Assembly (NCBI RefSeq): GCF_024128855.1
Contig: NZ_JAMYDV010000001.1
Location: 414,972-478,971 of the forward strand
DNA length: 64,000 nucleotides
Source of the DNA: Rhodovulum tesquicola
Lineage (GTDB): Bacteria > Pseudomonadota > Alphaproteobacteria > Rhodobacterales > Rhodobacteraceae
Direction: 5' to 3'
How positions within the stretch are numbered: the first letter of the stretch is position 1; each line of letters opens with the position of its first letter. This document shows positions 54,904 through 59,104 of this stretch, piece after piece. Under the pieces are notes generated by a model, which did not search any database, was not told where the DNA came from, and worked only from the letters and a program-made list of their open reading frames with translations. The translations under genes and the position numbers were made by a program.

Positions 54904-56160
54904 ATGGGAGACCTATCGCGTTACGTGATCCTGCGCGACCGCAATGCCGATCTGCGCAAGCGCATCACGGGCGAAGCCTTCGGCGAGGCGCCGGGGATGG
55001 CCGGTGTGCTGGGCGAGGCGGCCGGGCCGCGGCTGGGGGCGGCCATCAGCACCATGCTGCCGCCCGGACCCGAGCTTGACAGTGCCGACCTGACCGCGAA
55101 TGAGGCCAAGGACGCGATGCGTCAGGGCGATGTGGTGGGTGTGGTGCGCTCGATCCCGACGGCGCTGATCGTGCCGAAGGCGACGGCTGCCGACGCCGCG
55201 GCGACCGATACCTGGGGCATCGGGGCGGTGCGCGCCGATGCCTCGCCCTTTACCGGTGCAGGCGTCAGGGTAGCGGTGCTGGATACCGGCATCGACGCGG
55301 CCCACCCGGCCTTTGCGGGGATGACGCTGGTCCAGCAGGACTATACCGGCGAGGGCGATGGCGACGGCAACGGGCATGGCACCCATTGCGCGGGCACGAT
55401 CTTTGGCCGGGACGTGAACGGCCAGCGGATCGGCGTGGCGCGCGGGGTGAGTGAGGCCTTCATCGGCAAGGTGCTGAACGCGGAAGGCTCGGGCAGTTCC
55501 GAGATGATGTTCAGCGCGCTCAAGCGGGCGTCGGAGGAACGGGTTCAGGTGATCTCGATGTCGCTGGGATTCGATTTTCCCGGTCTCGTCAAGTTGCTGA
55601 TCGAAGAGGAGGATTTCCCCGCCGATCTGGCCACCTGGATCGCGCTGGAAGGGTTCCGCACCAATCTGGCGATGTTCAACGCGCTGATGAACATGATCCG
55701 GCAGCAGGCGGTGTTCGATGGCGGCACGGTGGTTATCGCGGCCAGCGGCAACGAGAGCCGCCGCGAGATCCATCCCAATTACGAGGTCGGCGCCTCGGTC
55801 CCGGCGGTGGCCGAGGGCTGCATCGCGGTGGGCGCGCTCCAGCAGGGCGCGGCGGGGCTGCGGATCGCCGATTTCTCGAACACCAATCCCGATATCGCCG
55901 CGCCGGGCGTGGGGGTTCTGTCGGCCAGGGCGGGCGGCGGGCTGGTCGCGCTGTCGGGCACCTCGATGGCCTGTCCGCATGTCGCGGGGCTGGCCGCCTT
56001 GTGGTGGGAGGCGACGCGCGCGGGGGCGCTGCCGGCCAATGCCGGGACGGTCAGCATGCGGTTGCTGTCCTCGGCCACGGTGGCGGGCATCGCGCCGGGC
56101 GTGCAGGTCGCCGATCGCGGGCAGGGGCTGGCGCAGGCGCCGCTGTCGCCGATCGGCTGA
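54904..56160 (+). CDS. Subtilisin-like serine protease without signal peptide
   Basis: A 418-residue S8 peptidase. The catalytic triad is present: Asp127 (VLDTGID), His158 (NGHGTHCAG) and Ser in GTSMACPH near 358, with the oxyanion Asn in AASGNES. About 110 residues precede the catalytic core, including a strand-rich piece like the inhibitor I9 propeptide (GDVVGVVRSIPTALIVP). There is no signal peptide or membrane helix, so it may act in the cytoplasm or be exported by a non-Sec route. The target is unknown. Confidence 0.88.
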   Translation: MGDLSRYVILRDRNADLRKRITGEAFGEAPGMAGVLGEAAGPRLGAAISTMLPPGPELDSADLTANEAKDAMRQGDVVGVVRSIPTALIVPKATAADAAATDTWGIGAVRADASPFTGAGVRVAVLDTGIDAAHPAFAGMTLVQQDYTGEGDGDGNGHGTHCAGTIFGRDVNGQRIGVARGVSEAFIGKVLNAEGSGSSEMMFSALKRASEERVQVISMSLGFDFPGLVKLLIEEEDFPADLATWIALEGFRTNLAMFNALMNMIRQQAVFDGGTVVIAASGNESRREIHPNYEVGASVPAVAEGCIAVGALQQGAAGLRIADFSNTNPDIAAPGVGVLSARAGGGLVALSGTSMACPHVAGLAALWWEATRAGALPANAGTVSMRLLSSATVAGIAPGVQVADRGQGLAQAPLSPIG

Positions 56161-56186: not shown

Positions 56187-57005
56187 TCAGTCGCCCAGCT
56201 TGGCATGCACCTCGTCAAGGTCGACCTCGCCCAGCGGCATGCGGTTGGCGGGATCGTCGAAATCGTAGCGGAACAGCGCGAAGTCGCGGCGGTAGATCTC
56301 GTGCATCAGGTGCATGGCGAGGTCGTCGAAATACGCCTCGACAGGGTGGGCGCGTTTCGGGCCGTGGGAGGCGGATTCGTTGAAGCGGGGGATGGCGGCA
56401 AGGTCGATCCGGTGCGGCGTGTCGGCGGCGTCCAGCACGGCCTGCATCCCCTGGTCGAAACGTTCGGTGAAGAAGATGCGGTCATAGCGCCCGCCGCCCA
56501 GGATGAAGGTCGAGATATGGCCCGACATGGCCGACCAGTGGATGTCCGGATCCATCGGTTTGCGCCAGCGGATGGTGTCGCGGGCAAACAGCAGGAAGCG
56601 GCGGAAGCTGGCGATCTGGTCGAACTCGGCGCTGCCATCTGGGCCGCCGACATCTATCCCGTATTTCTGCACCAGCATGGGCACCAGCTTGCCGCGATAG
56701 CGGTTGCCGTTGCGCTGGATGCCGCAGATCTTGTCGAAAAACGACGACAGGATGCGGGAATAGGGGTTGCGCACGCAGGTAAAGGCGGGCGCGCTGCGGG
56801 CACGCACCACGCGGTCGATGGGCCCTTGGCTGTCGTCCTGTGCCCATTTGTGCAGCCCTTCGGTGGCGTCGTGGATGTCGCCGTCGAAGAACTGGCCGTG
56901 GTCGGAGAAATACATGATCTGGCCGATGGTCGAGCAGGCGCATTTCGGCACGACGCGGTAGACCATGCTTTCGCTGGTCGTCATCCAGGTGCCGGGAAAG
57001 CCCAT
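56187..57005 (-). CDS. Sulfotransferase (carbohydrate sulfotransferase family 2 type)
   Basis: A 272-residue protein with the two PAPS-binding motifs of Golgi-type carbohydrate sulfotransferases: VPKCACSTIGQ (19-29, 5'-phosphosulfate binding) and FTCVRNPYSRILSSFFDK (about 76-93, 3'-phosphate binding, with the Arg-Asn-Pro-Tyr core). It has no membrane segment, so it should act in the cytoplasm on a glycan or lipid precursor. It is divergent from a GT14-like glycosyltransferase gene with 131 bases between starts, an arrangement that suggests a common product. Confidence 0.85.
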   Translation of the reverse strand: MGFPGTWMTTSESMVYRVVPKCACSTIGQIMYFSDHGQFFDGDIHDATEGLHKWAQDDSQGPIDRVVRARSAPAFTCVRNPYSRILSSFFDKICGIQRNGNRYRGKLVPMLVQKYGIDVGGPDGSAEFDQIASFRRFLLFARDTIRWRKPMDPDIHWSAMSGHISTFILGGGRYDRIFFTERFDQGMQAVLDAADTPHRIDLAAIPRFNESASHGPKRAHPVEAYFDDLAMHLMHEIYRRDFALFRYDFDDPANRMPLGEVDLDEVHAKLGD

Positions 57006-57136
57006 CCTCGCCTCCGCTGTGCCGACGCGATTCTGCGCCGTCCCTGACGGTTCTAGGCGGGAAAATCATAACAAATTTTCAACGAAGACCGGCGCATGGT
57101 CGGGGCGTGCGCAAAACCGGAGGCGGGCCGCGAGAG

Positions 57137-58714
57137 ATGGCGAGAATCGCCTATATCCTTCTGTGCCACAAGGCGCCCGACGAGGTCATCGCCCAGGCCC
57201 GGCGGCTGAGTGCGGCGGGGGATTTCGTCGCGATCCATCATGACGGGCGCGCGCCTGCGGGCGAGCATGCGGCGATCCGCGCGGCGCTGGCGGGCGATCC
57301 GGGGGTTGTGTTCGCGCGGCGGCGGGTGAAATGCGGCTGGGGCGGGTGGTCGCTGGTGGAGGCCACGCTGGAGGCGCTGCGCGCGGCGCTGGCGGCCTTC
57401 CCGCGGGCGAGCCATTTCTACATGCTGTCGGGCGATTGCATGCCGATCAAGACGGCCGAATATGCCCATGCCTTTCTCGATGCCCGCGACGCCGACCATA
57501 TCGAGTGCTTTGATTTCTTCGAGTCGGACTGGATCCGCACCGGGATCAGGGAAGAACGGCTGATCTATCGCCACCCGTTCAACGAGCGCCGTCACAGGCG
57601 GCTGTTCTACGCCACGCTGGCGGTGCAGCGGCGGCTGGGGCTGAGGCGGGCGATCCCGGCCGATCTGCGGGTGATGATCGGCAGCCAGTGGTGGTGCCTG
57701 CGCCGCCGCACGGTCGAGGCGGTGCTGGATTTCATCCGCGCCCGGCCCGACGTGGTGCGGTTCTTTCGTGGCACATGGATCCCCGACGAGAGCTTTTTCC
57801 AGACGCTGGTGCGCCATCTGGTGCCCGCGGCCGAGATCAGCGCGCGCACGCCCACCTTCCTGATGTTCACCGATTACGGGATGCCGGTGACCTTCTACAA
57901 CGATCATTACGACCTGCTGCTGGCGCAGGATTTCCTGTTCGCGCGCAAGATCTCGCCCGAGGCGCAGGACCTCAAGGCGCGGCTGGGAACGCTTTATGCC
58001 GCGCGGGGCGTGGATTTCCCGATCTCGGACGAGGGGCGGCGGCTGCATGCATTCCTGACCGGGCAGGGGCGGGTCGGGCGGCGGTTCGCGCCCCGCATCT
58101 GGGAGACCGAGGCAAGCCTGGGGCCGGGGCGCGAATTGCTGATCGTGACCTGCAAGAAATGGCATGTGGCCCGGCGGCTGGTCGCGCGGATGCGCGAGGT
58201 GACGGGGGTGCCGGGCGTCGGCTACCTGTTCGACGAAGAGGCGGCGGGCCTGCCCGATCTGGGCGGCATCGCGGCGAGCCTTGAGAAGCGCAACCGCCAC
58301 CGCCGGGCGCTGGTGCGGATGCTGTTCGACCATTTCGGGACCGACCGGCTGGCGATCTGCCTCGATCCCGCGGGCATCGAGGCGATGCGCGATTTCGATG
58401 CCGACCGCGCCCGCGTGGGCGTGCTGGAGATCCGCTGCGATTTCAGCGATGCGGACCTGGCCGGGCATGCGCGGCGCGTCGGGCTGGCGGGCGAGCGCAC
58501 CCCGGACGAGGCGCTGGCGAGGCTGTTGCCGACGATCCGGCGCGACATCGGGTTCGAAAGCGACCGGCTGGACGGGGCGGGGTTCGCCGGCCTGCTGCGG
58601 ATCGACCAGCGTCGCGGGGCGGCCGAAAACGCGGCCCCTCTGGCGCAGTTCCTCTCGATCCCCTACGAAACGGCAGGCAAGATCGCCGCGACCGACCAGC
58701 TTTTCGCCGATTGA
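57137..58714 (+). CDS. GT14 (Branch)-type glycosyltransferase with C-terminal extra domain
   Basis: A 525-residue protein. The N-terminal half (about 1-260) resembles core-2/I-branching N-acetylglucosaminyltransferases: IAYILLCHKAPDEVIAQ, FVAIHHDGR, SHFYMLSGDCMPIKTA, IGSQWWCLRR and WIPDESFFQTLVRHL. The second half (about 315-525) has ELLIVTCKKWHVARRLVARM and further helical stretches that I do not recognise beyond a likely DUF5927/5928-type domain. The ATG at 57137 (MARIAYILLCHK) fits conservation; a GTG at 57107 is possible. Paired with the sulfotransferase. Confidence 0.82.
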   Translation: MARIAYILLCHKAPDEVIAQARRLSAAGDFVAIHHDGRAPAGEHAAIRAALAGDPGVVFARRRVKCGWGGWSLVEATLEALRAALAAFPRASHFYMLSGDCMPIKTAEYAHAFLDARDADHIECFDFFESDWIRTGIREERLIYRHPFNERRHRRLFYATLAVQRRLGLRRAIPADLRVMIGSQWWCLRRRTVEAVLDFIRARPDVVRFFRGTWIPDESFFQTLVRHLVPAAEISARTPTFLMFTDYGMPVTFYNDHYDLLLAQDFLFARKISPEAQDLKARLGTLYAARGVDFPISDEGRRLHAFLTGQGRVGRRFAPRIWETEASLGPGRELLIVTCKKWHVARRLVARMREVTGVPGVGYLFDEEAAGLPDLGGIAASLEKRNRHRRALVRMLFDHFGTDRLAICLDPAGIEAMRDFDADRARVGVLEIRCDFSDADLAGHARRVGLAGERTPDEALARLLPTIRRDIGFESDRLDGAGFAGLLRIDQRRGAAENAAPLAQFLSIPYETAGKIAATDQLFAD

Positions 58715-58723
58715 GGAGGCCCC

Positions 58724-59104
58724 ATGCCCTATGTCTATGACGACCAGAACGTGTTCGCGAAGATCCTGCGCGGCGAGATCCCGAACGACACGGTGATGGA
58801 AACCACCTACACGCTGGCCTTCAACGATATCGCGCCGCAGGCGCCGGTGCATGTGCTGGTGATCCCCAAGGGGCCCTATGTATGCTACGATCATTTCGCA
58901 CAGGACGCCTCGGCGGCCGAGATCGCGGATTTCACCCGTGTCGTCGGCGAGATCTGCCGCCAGAAGGGCTTGCGGCCGGGCGAGGGCGGCGCGGGCTACC
59001 GGCTGATCGCCAATTCCGGCCGCGACGCGATCCAGGAGGTGCCGCACATGCATGTGCATATCCTGGGCGGGCGCGATCTGGGCCGGATGCTGGCCCCGGC
59101 CTGA
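58724..59104 (+). CDS. HIT-family protein (HinT-like)
   Basis: A 126-residue histidine triad hydrolase of purine nucleoside phosphoramidates. It opens VYDDQNVFAKILRGEIPND and ends with the triad PHMHVHILGGRDLG. GAGGAG precedes the ATG, nine bases after the glycosyltransferase stop, so it may be cotranscribed. A hairpin follows. Confidence 0.93.
   Translation: MPYVYDDQNVFAKILRGEIPNDTVMETTYTLAFNDIAPQAPVHVLVIPKGPYVCYDHFAQDASAAEIADFTRVVGEICRQKGLRPGEGGAGYRLIANSGRDAIQEVPHMHVHILGGRDLGRMLAPA

Follow-up and report, generated by a model that had tools for sequence, protein, structure and literature searches.

A divergent sulfotransferase–GT14 gene pair and its co-lost partner cassette: a candidate pathway of surface glycan sulfation in Rhodobacteraceae

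The stretch of DNA analysed here (hereinafter, the window) comprises 64,000 nucleotides of the Rhodovulum tesquicola genome (contig NZ_JAMYDV010000001.1, positions 414,972 to 478,971) and contains two divergently oriented genes, one for a predicted carbohydrate-type sulfotransferase (ST1) and the other for a two-domain glycosyltransferase (GT) of the GT14 type (GT14a), separated by a short intergenic region (Table 1). A second cassette, located elsewhere in the same genome, encodes two GT2-type glycosyltransferases of the Pfam family PF13704 (GTa and GTb), the one further GT14 enzyme of this genome (GT14b, with a DUF5927 domain; 44% identity to GT14a over the GT domain) and another putative sulfotransferase (ST2, 497 aa). 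The two loci tend to be present together and to be lost together within the family Rhodobacteraceae, and we propose that they may jointly build a sulfated surface glycan.

Table 1. Features of the sulfotransferase–GT14 locus in the window
Feature	Positions	Strand	Details
ST1, carbohydrate-type sulfotransferase, 272 aa	56187-57005	-	Pfam Sulfotransfer_2, PF03567
Intergenic region of the divergent pair, presumably a shared promoter region	57006-57136	.	131 bp between ST1 and GT14a
GT14a, two-domain GT14-type glycosyltransferase, 525 aa	57137-58714	+	
Branch/GT14 domain of GT14a, aa 4-227	57146-57817	+	PF02485, 68.7 bits (cut-off 23.4)
DUF5928 domain of GT14a, aa 270-525	57944-58711	+	PF19350, 385 bits
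HIT-family gene, frequent but probably unrelated neighbour	58724-59104	+	PF01230; directly downstream of GT14a

Searching named genomes with ST1 as the query retrieved at least 590 coding stretches, of which the best 80 were kept as named loci; this set is, therefore, weighted toward close relatives. In all 80 loci, GT14a adjoins ST1 divergently, with gaps of 114–186 bp (locus L110 is cut by a contig end), so that the pairing is far from chance. The titles of these loci refer to Rhodobacteraceae or Rhodobacterales, or to metagenome-assembled genomes whose names stop at a higher rank, with a single exception, L115 (JAHVJD010000004.1; ST1, 78%; GT14a, 68%), which is titled Nocardioides marinus, an actinobacterium, and most likely reflects mislabelling or contamination of the assembly. 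We also analysed a sample of 61 genomes, 37 from Rhodobacteraceae (including that of R. tesquicola itself) and 24 from other families of the class. Of these genomes, 33 encode DUF5928 and 29 an ST1 orthologue, all within Rhodobacteraceae; the ST1 gene lies beside the DUF5928 gene in each of the 29, and DUF5928 without ST1 is found in G001, G007 (a fragment), G015 and G016. Thus, the divergent pair of the original prediction is real and, rather than coming apart in most genomes, stays together in every sampled genome with ST1 and every named locus. The pair is widespread in Rhodobacteraceae.

The region between the two genes had been described as AT-rich, which is only mildly the case in the window (GC content of 63.4% compared with 68% for the window as a whole); its 40-bp core (57056-57095) has a GC content of 47.5%, a value as low as which is found in 1213 of the 6387 window segments of equal size. 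Among the relatives, however, the trend is consistent: the GC content of the gap is below that of its own locus in 79 of 80, with a median difference of 13 points.

Compared with Pfam on its own, ST2, the putative sulfotransferase of the second cassette, produces only a weak match to Sulfotransfer_3 (18 bits, below the cut-off of 27). The family alignment (A4) includes 24 of the 30 rows, leaving out G005 and five rows interrupted by an in-frame stop within the alignment; the N-terminal half of the resulting profile matches the Protein Data Bank (PDB) entry 9vki, 'LPS sulfotransferase NodH' (E = 1.2e-13), and hhalign aligns the C-terminal half to the profile of ST1 (probability 92.6%, E = 4.7e-7). 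Matches to Sulfotransfer_3 were obtained for 18 of the 24 members at E-values up to 0.1 and to Sulfotransfer_2 for 10 (best E = 7.7e-9, match position not given). Thus, ST2 appears to combine two sulfotransferase modules in a single chain, one NodH-like and the other ST1-like, the Sulfotransfer_2 family of ST1 being different from the Stf0/NodH type of the N-terminal half. Of the 61 genomes, 30 encode DUF5927, in every case with ST2 next to it (both genes are broken in G005); the GT14b alignment (A5) comprises 17 of the 30 rows.

The two loci show closely similar distributions. Among the 37 family genomes, 29 carry both (the decaying G005 is scored here as having both), none carries ST1 only, one carries the cassette only and seven carry neither. 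We then extended the comparison to 150 genomes of Rhodobacteraceae, each from another genus, of which 126 have DUF5927 and 122 have an ST1 orthologue. The two loci coincide in 120 genera, with ST1 only in 2 (G102 and G162), the cassette only in 6 (G016, G067, G072, G107, G121 and G145) and neither in 22. In these counts, G016 (30 bits), G145 (26 bits) and G184 (a remnant, aa 204-272) are scored as lacking ST1, G191 (with ST1 disrupted at two points) and G187 (at 44% identity) are scored as having it, and 4 and 5 of the genomes without a match in the two respective scans are assigned by subtraction. ST1 of G191 consists of two pieces (C1:3684833-3685114 and C1:3708421-3709047) that are separated by about 23 kb and differ in strand, which suggests a rearrangement through the gene, and the DUF5927 match in this genome holds an in-frame TGA; G184, along with its ST1 remnant, has no DUF5927.

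Further observations come from the window's genus, in which both loci were affected on no fewer than four separate occasions, by loss in G003, in G001 together with G015, and in G007, and by decay in G005. These events were placed on a FastTree phylogeny of the 37 genomes built from the flanking proteins galU, hpf, ptsN and kdsB, with some genomes lacking part of this set; the placement of G014 and G012, which have no galU and kdsB, depends solely on hpf and ptsN, and that of the root, G029, on galU. The intact G014 and the decaying G005 form the sister group of G001 and G015, with a support of 1.00 for the four. All pathway genes are absent from G003. In G001 and G015, the cassette is absent, and kdsB, galU, ptsN and an epimerase frame are present; this frame, which we take to be galE-like by its sequence (L207, L209, L210), sits between galU and ptsN, at the site of the missing cassette, in G001, G015 and G003 alike. 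GT14a is seemingly retained in G001 and G015; however, only 59 of the 93 invariant positions of its GT domain are preserved, with E218 replaced by Ala, D217 by Glu and R270-K271 by His-Arg, so that the protein has lost its active-site residues. The corresponding values in ST1-bearing genomes are 89/93 in G014, from the sister group, and 85/93 and 84/93 in the more distant G019 and G030. The decay in G001 and G015 is strongest in the GT domain, not in the lysine-tryptophan motif of DUF5928; an erosion of this motif (CKKWHVA) confined to genomes without ST1 was considered and rejected, given that G019, with ST1, has AAKLWHM and G016, without ST1, retains the motif.

ST1 of G005 contains an in-frame stop, and this genome has broken copies of GTa, GT14b and ST2; sequencing error could account for part of this decay. 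G007 is the closest relative of R. tesquicola in the tree (97% for galU and 99% for NTH), and yet at the pair locus it retains only aa 459-525 of GT14a, flanked by subtilase and HIT genes that are both intact, and at the cassette locus only a scrap of ST2 (about aa 355-454, with two stops) between galU and ptsN. The genomes with joint events, at 3.7-4.5 Mb, are not smaller than the 3.5-Mb genome of the window. Taken together, joint presence and joint loss make it highly probable that the two loci represent one pathway, and the pair, originally taken for a two-gene unit, is then one half of a two-locus system.

This history also bears on the simplest alternative, namely that ST1 and GT14a are two unrelated housekeeping genes that share an ancestral promoter region by chance and are kept together by drift. 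The HIT gene, a likely unrelated neighbour, also adjoins GT14a in 60 of the 80 loci (some of the remaining loci are short contigs), and an intact GT14a without ST1 exists in G016, both as drift would have it. Nevertheless, we consider drift highly improbable, given that no ST1 orthologue without GT14a was found among the 29 sampled genomes and the 80 named loci, that GT14a has lost its active site in the ST1-less G001 and G015, and that both genes are deleted in G007 next to an intact HIT gene.

The remaining neighbourhood of the pair is variable. The commonest genes beyond ST1 are an NTH-sugar kinase pair, found in 16 of the 80 loci, and a crude clustering of the long frames in this direction showed no gene common to more than 14 loci (among the 73 loci with more than 3 kb). 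In the window, a subtilase gene (54904-56160) lies between the sugar-kinase gene and ST1; only 3 of the 80 loci have it at this place, and it was rejected as a pathway partner. This limited presence and its persistence in G007, where the pair is deleted, make the subtilase look like a lineage-specific insertion.

ST1 itself is readily assigned to its family: the PF03567 match scores 121.1 bits against a cut-off of 22 and covers positions 3-252 of the 252-position profile. The stretches PKCACST (aa 20-26) and VRNPYSRILSSF (aa 78-89) resemble what we take to be the 5'- and 3'-phosphate binding motifs for 3'-phosphoadenosine 5'-phosphosulfate (PAPS). In the alignment (A2) of 46 sequences, that is, 45 of the 80 relatives and the window protein, P20, K21, C22, A23, C24 and S25 as well as R79, N80, P81, Y82, R84, L86, S87 and S88 are invariant. 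Structure prediction from 46 similar sequences gave a poor model (predicted local distance difference test score (pLDDT) of 61.7), and a fold search with this low-confidence model found nothing below E = 0.1, the best match being the sulfotransferase 3rnl (E = 0.16); searches of PDB with phmmer produced only chance-level matches for ST1, and the ST1 profile fared likewise. ST1 has a close match in Rhodovulum strictum (94%), in which both ST1 and GT14a are intact.

For GT14a, we prefer the ATG at 57137 as the start, over the GTG at 57107 chosen originally, because M1 is invariant in the alignment (A1; 48 of the 80 relatives and the window protein, with one relative included twice). Members of the GT14 family, which is known above all from animals and plants, include N-acetylglucosaminyl (GlcNAc)-, xylosyl- and glucuronosyltransferases. 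In the predicted structure (pLDDT 84), the chain opens directly with the first strand, and residues 1-293 superimpose on the core 2 GlcNAc-transferase 3otk with a Z score of 26.4 and a root mean square deviation of 3.0 over 272 aligned residues; the Z score for xylosyltransferase 1 is 23.1, and identity to the animal GT14 enzymes in the structural alignments is about 20-24%. Human xylosyltransferase 1 is the sole significant sequence relative of solved structure. E218, invariant in 50 of the 50 alignment rows, is aligned to the Glu of LPAESFF in xylosyltransferase 1 (6ej7), presumably the catalytic glutamate. The possibility that DUF5928 is a hidden sulfotransferase domain was rejected since profile comparison shows no similarity to ST1 or ST2. 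A Foldseek search with the whole GT14a model matched adenylate kinase 3cm0 (E = 2.9e-4, 194 columns; the match is not localised to a domain), a hint that a P-loop-like domain might be fused to the glycosyltransferase.

The relationship with human xylosyltransferase 1, which glycosylates proteins, raises the question whether the substrate of ST1 and GT14a is a separate small molecule, or a protein modified by xylosyltransferase-like O-glycosylation, with no connection to the cassette and with the co-occurrence caused by general genome reduction. This appears quite unlikely to us: the structure of GT14a is closer to the core 2 GlcNAc-transferase than to the xylosyltransferase, and the joint events span four lineages of one genus, in genomes no smaller than that of the window.

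The cassette is set among LPS-related genes. The gene order in this genome is a SIS-CBS protein (KdsD-like), LptC-like, LptA, LptB-like ATP-binding cassette protein, sigma-54 (rpoN), hpf and ptsN, followed convergently by ST2, GT14b, GTa, GTb, galU and kdsB; the frame that we take to be LptC-like by its position has no Pfam match. Within the fetched stretches of 29 relatives, several of which end at contig edges, lptB was found in 27, galU in 25 and kdsB in 18. Loss of kdsB along with the cassette was considered and rejected, given that G007 carries kdsB elsewhere. PAPS synthesis requires adenosine 5'-phosphosulfate (APS) kinase, and a 598-aa frame of the genome contains an APS kinase match, which is nonspecific in that 53 of the 61 sampled genomes also match. 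By hydropathy, no membrane span was detected in the six pathway proteins (maximum 19-residue values of 0.79-1.48, some starts being uncertain), so these proteins can be expected to work on the cytoplasmic face. The dedicated sulfated surface glycan that had been predicted from the pair alone is thus supported by context, that is, by a second GT14-sulfotransferase cassette, co-occurring and co-lost with the pair, between genes for 3-deoxy-D-manno-oct-2-ulosonic acid (Kdo) and Lpt functions and galU-kdsB.

Based on these sequence comparisons, we favor, with moderate confidence, the interpretation that both loci build a single PAPS-sulfated oligosaccharide, most likely the core of the lipopolysaccharide (LPS), on the cytoplasmic face. 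In this scheme, the four glycosyltransferases of the GT2 and GT14 types would extend the Kdo-lipid A inner core in the cytoplasm by a short branched oligosaccharide, with GT14a and GT14b attaching the branching sugars; ST1 and ST2 would move sulfate from PAPS onto this core oligosaccharide before flipping; and the sulfated product would leave via the Lpt machinery, the genes of which flank the cassette. We infer the sulfate transfer to this glycan, the identity of the latter with the LPS core, the nature of the sugars and the sequence of steps from the gene content, pairing, co-occurrence and co-loss, the APS kinase and the conserved active-site residues described above.

Several observations weigh against this proposal. 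Eight of the 150 genera are discordant for the two loci, and the Fisher test for their co-occurrence (p = 7e-19) ignores shared ancestry. The parts of the system do not all decay together, GT14a of G005 being still intact, with 90 of the 93 GT-domain invariants. G016 is a true exception, with the cassette and a GT14a that retains the catalytic residues (83/93 invariants) and no ST1. The kdsD-lpt-rpoN-hpf-ptsN array is an old, conserved housekeeping cluster, so that the adjacency to lpt and kds is only moderate evidence, and co-loss counts for more than proximity to ptsN, hpf, lpt and kds; moreover, no lpt gene was found within the fetched stretch around the G035 cassette and no convincing lptB within that around the G019 cassette. 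The older LPS structures of Rhodobacter sphaeroides are not known to include sulfate. Finally, section 18 of a review (PMC3210612) describes the lipooligosaccharide of Loktanella rosea, a species of this group the gene content of which was not compared here, as containing only Kdo, neuraminic acid, glucosamine and galacturonic acid, and sulfate goes unmentioned there.

Some of these points would also fit a sulfated glycan on a capsule, exopolysaccharide or glycolipid carrier instead of the LPS core, with the kds/lpt setting being an accident of the old housekeeping cluster. The L. rosea description and the G035 cassette agree with this alternative, and CMP-Kdo also serves Kdo-anchored capsules. 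Conversely, no polymerase, flippase or capsule-export gene was recognised in the two neighbourhoods, most frames of which were outside the family-library scan; exactly one copy of kdsB scoring above 100 bits is present in each of the 37 family genomes; and the cassette is near lptB in 27 of the 29 relatives. Accordingly, we regard a carrier of this kind as rather unlikely and the LPS core as a reasonably plausible acceptor.

The pair was originally likened to the sulfated glycan pathways of animals, and this likeness comes down to family homology. GT14a shares the GT14 fold with the animal core 2 beta-1,6-GlcNAc-transferase and xylosyltransferase 1, and ST1 belongs, along with animal enzymes that function in glycosaminoglycan sulfation, to the family PF03567. 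In contrast, the type II membrane anchors expected of Golgi enzymes of the animal glycosaminoglycan pathway are missing in the six bacterial proteins, and the bacterial system additionally includes the C-terminal DUF5928 and DUF5927 domains and a partner cassette among Kdo/LPS genes.

Among bacterial systems, the closest parallel is LpsS, the Stf0-family enzyme of LPS sulfation in Sinorhizobium meliloti (Cronan and Keating 2004, as cited in PMC12445080), likewise an alphaproteobacterium, with a sulfotransferase of the same Stf0/NodH type as the N-terminal half of ST2 and with LPS as the acceptor, as proposed here. However, by the same account, LpsS is a single gene regulated together with symbiosis genes, whereas the system described here consists of two loci across most genera of a family and adds two GT14 enzymes and a Sulfotransfer_2 enzyme. 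The clusters for sulfated capsular polysaccharides of the marine bacteria Vibrio KMM 8419 (PMC11641403) and Cobetia KMM 1449 (PMC11766843) also combine a sulfated surface polysaccharide with a sulfotransferase but, as far as these reports go, represent capsules of single strains; the system analysed here occurs in most genera of a family, and no capsule genes were recognised alongside it. In the available text of the literature, including PMC3210612, PMC5713287, PMC3230580, PMC9723792, PMC4052302, PMC12445080 and PMC10218006, we found no account of the pair or the cassette, such absence being weak evidence. Thus, sulfation of bacterial surface glycans is already known, and the two-locus GT14-sulfotransferase pathway is probably a Rhodobacteraceae LPS feature for which we found no description.

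Rhodobacteraceae (the Roseobacter group, Rhodobacter, Rhodovulum) are a large, widespread and mostly aquatic family, and the presence of both loci in 120 of the 150 sampled genera brings two sulfotransferase genes and two GT14 enzymes to each of these. A more speculative reading, which we put forward as doubtful, is that a conserved, charged LPS core, sulfated and branched family-wide, is a docking site for phages and gene transfer agents, and possibly a further receptor of the gene transfer agent RcGTA; the available text of the RcGTA paper (PMC10218006) proposes a surface oligosaccharide receptor besides the capsule, with LPS as a candidate. Were the core such a docking site, phage selection would explain the repeated joint loss of both loci in single species. 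These natural double losses provide ready-made species pairs for comparison. If LPS is indeed sulfated in these bacteria, the view of how they carry surface charge, bind phages and gene transfer agents and are recognised by hosts would change, and PAPS would gain a use beyond sulfur assimilation.

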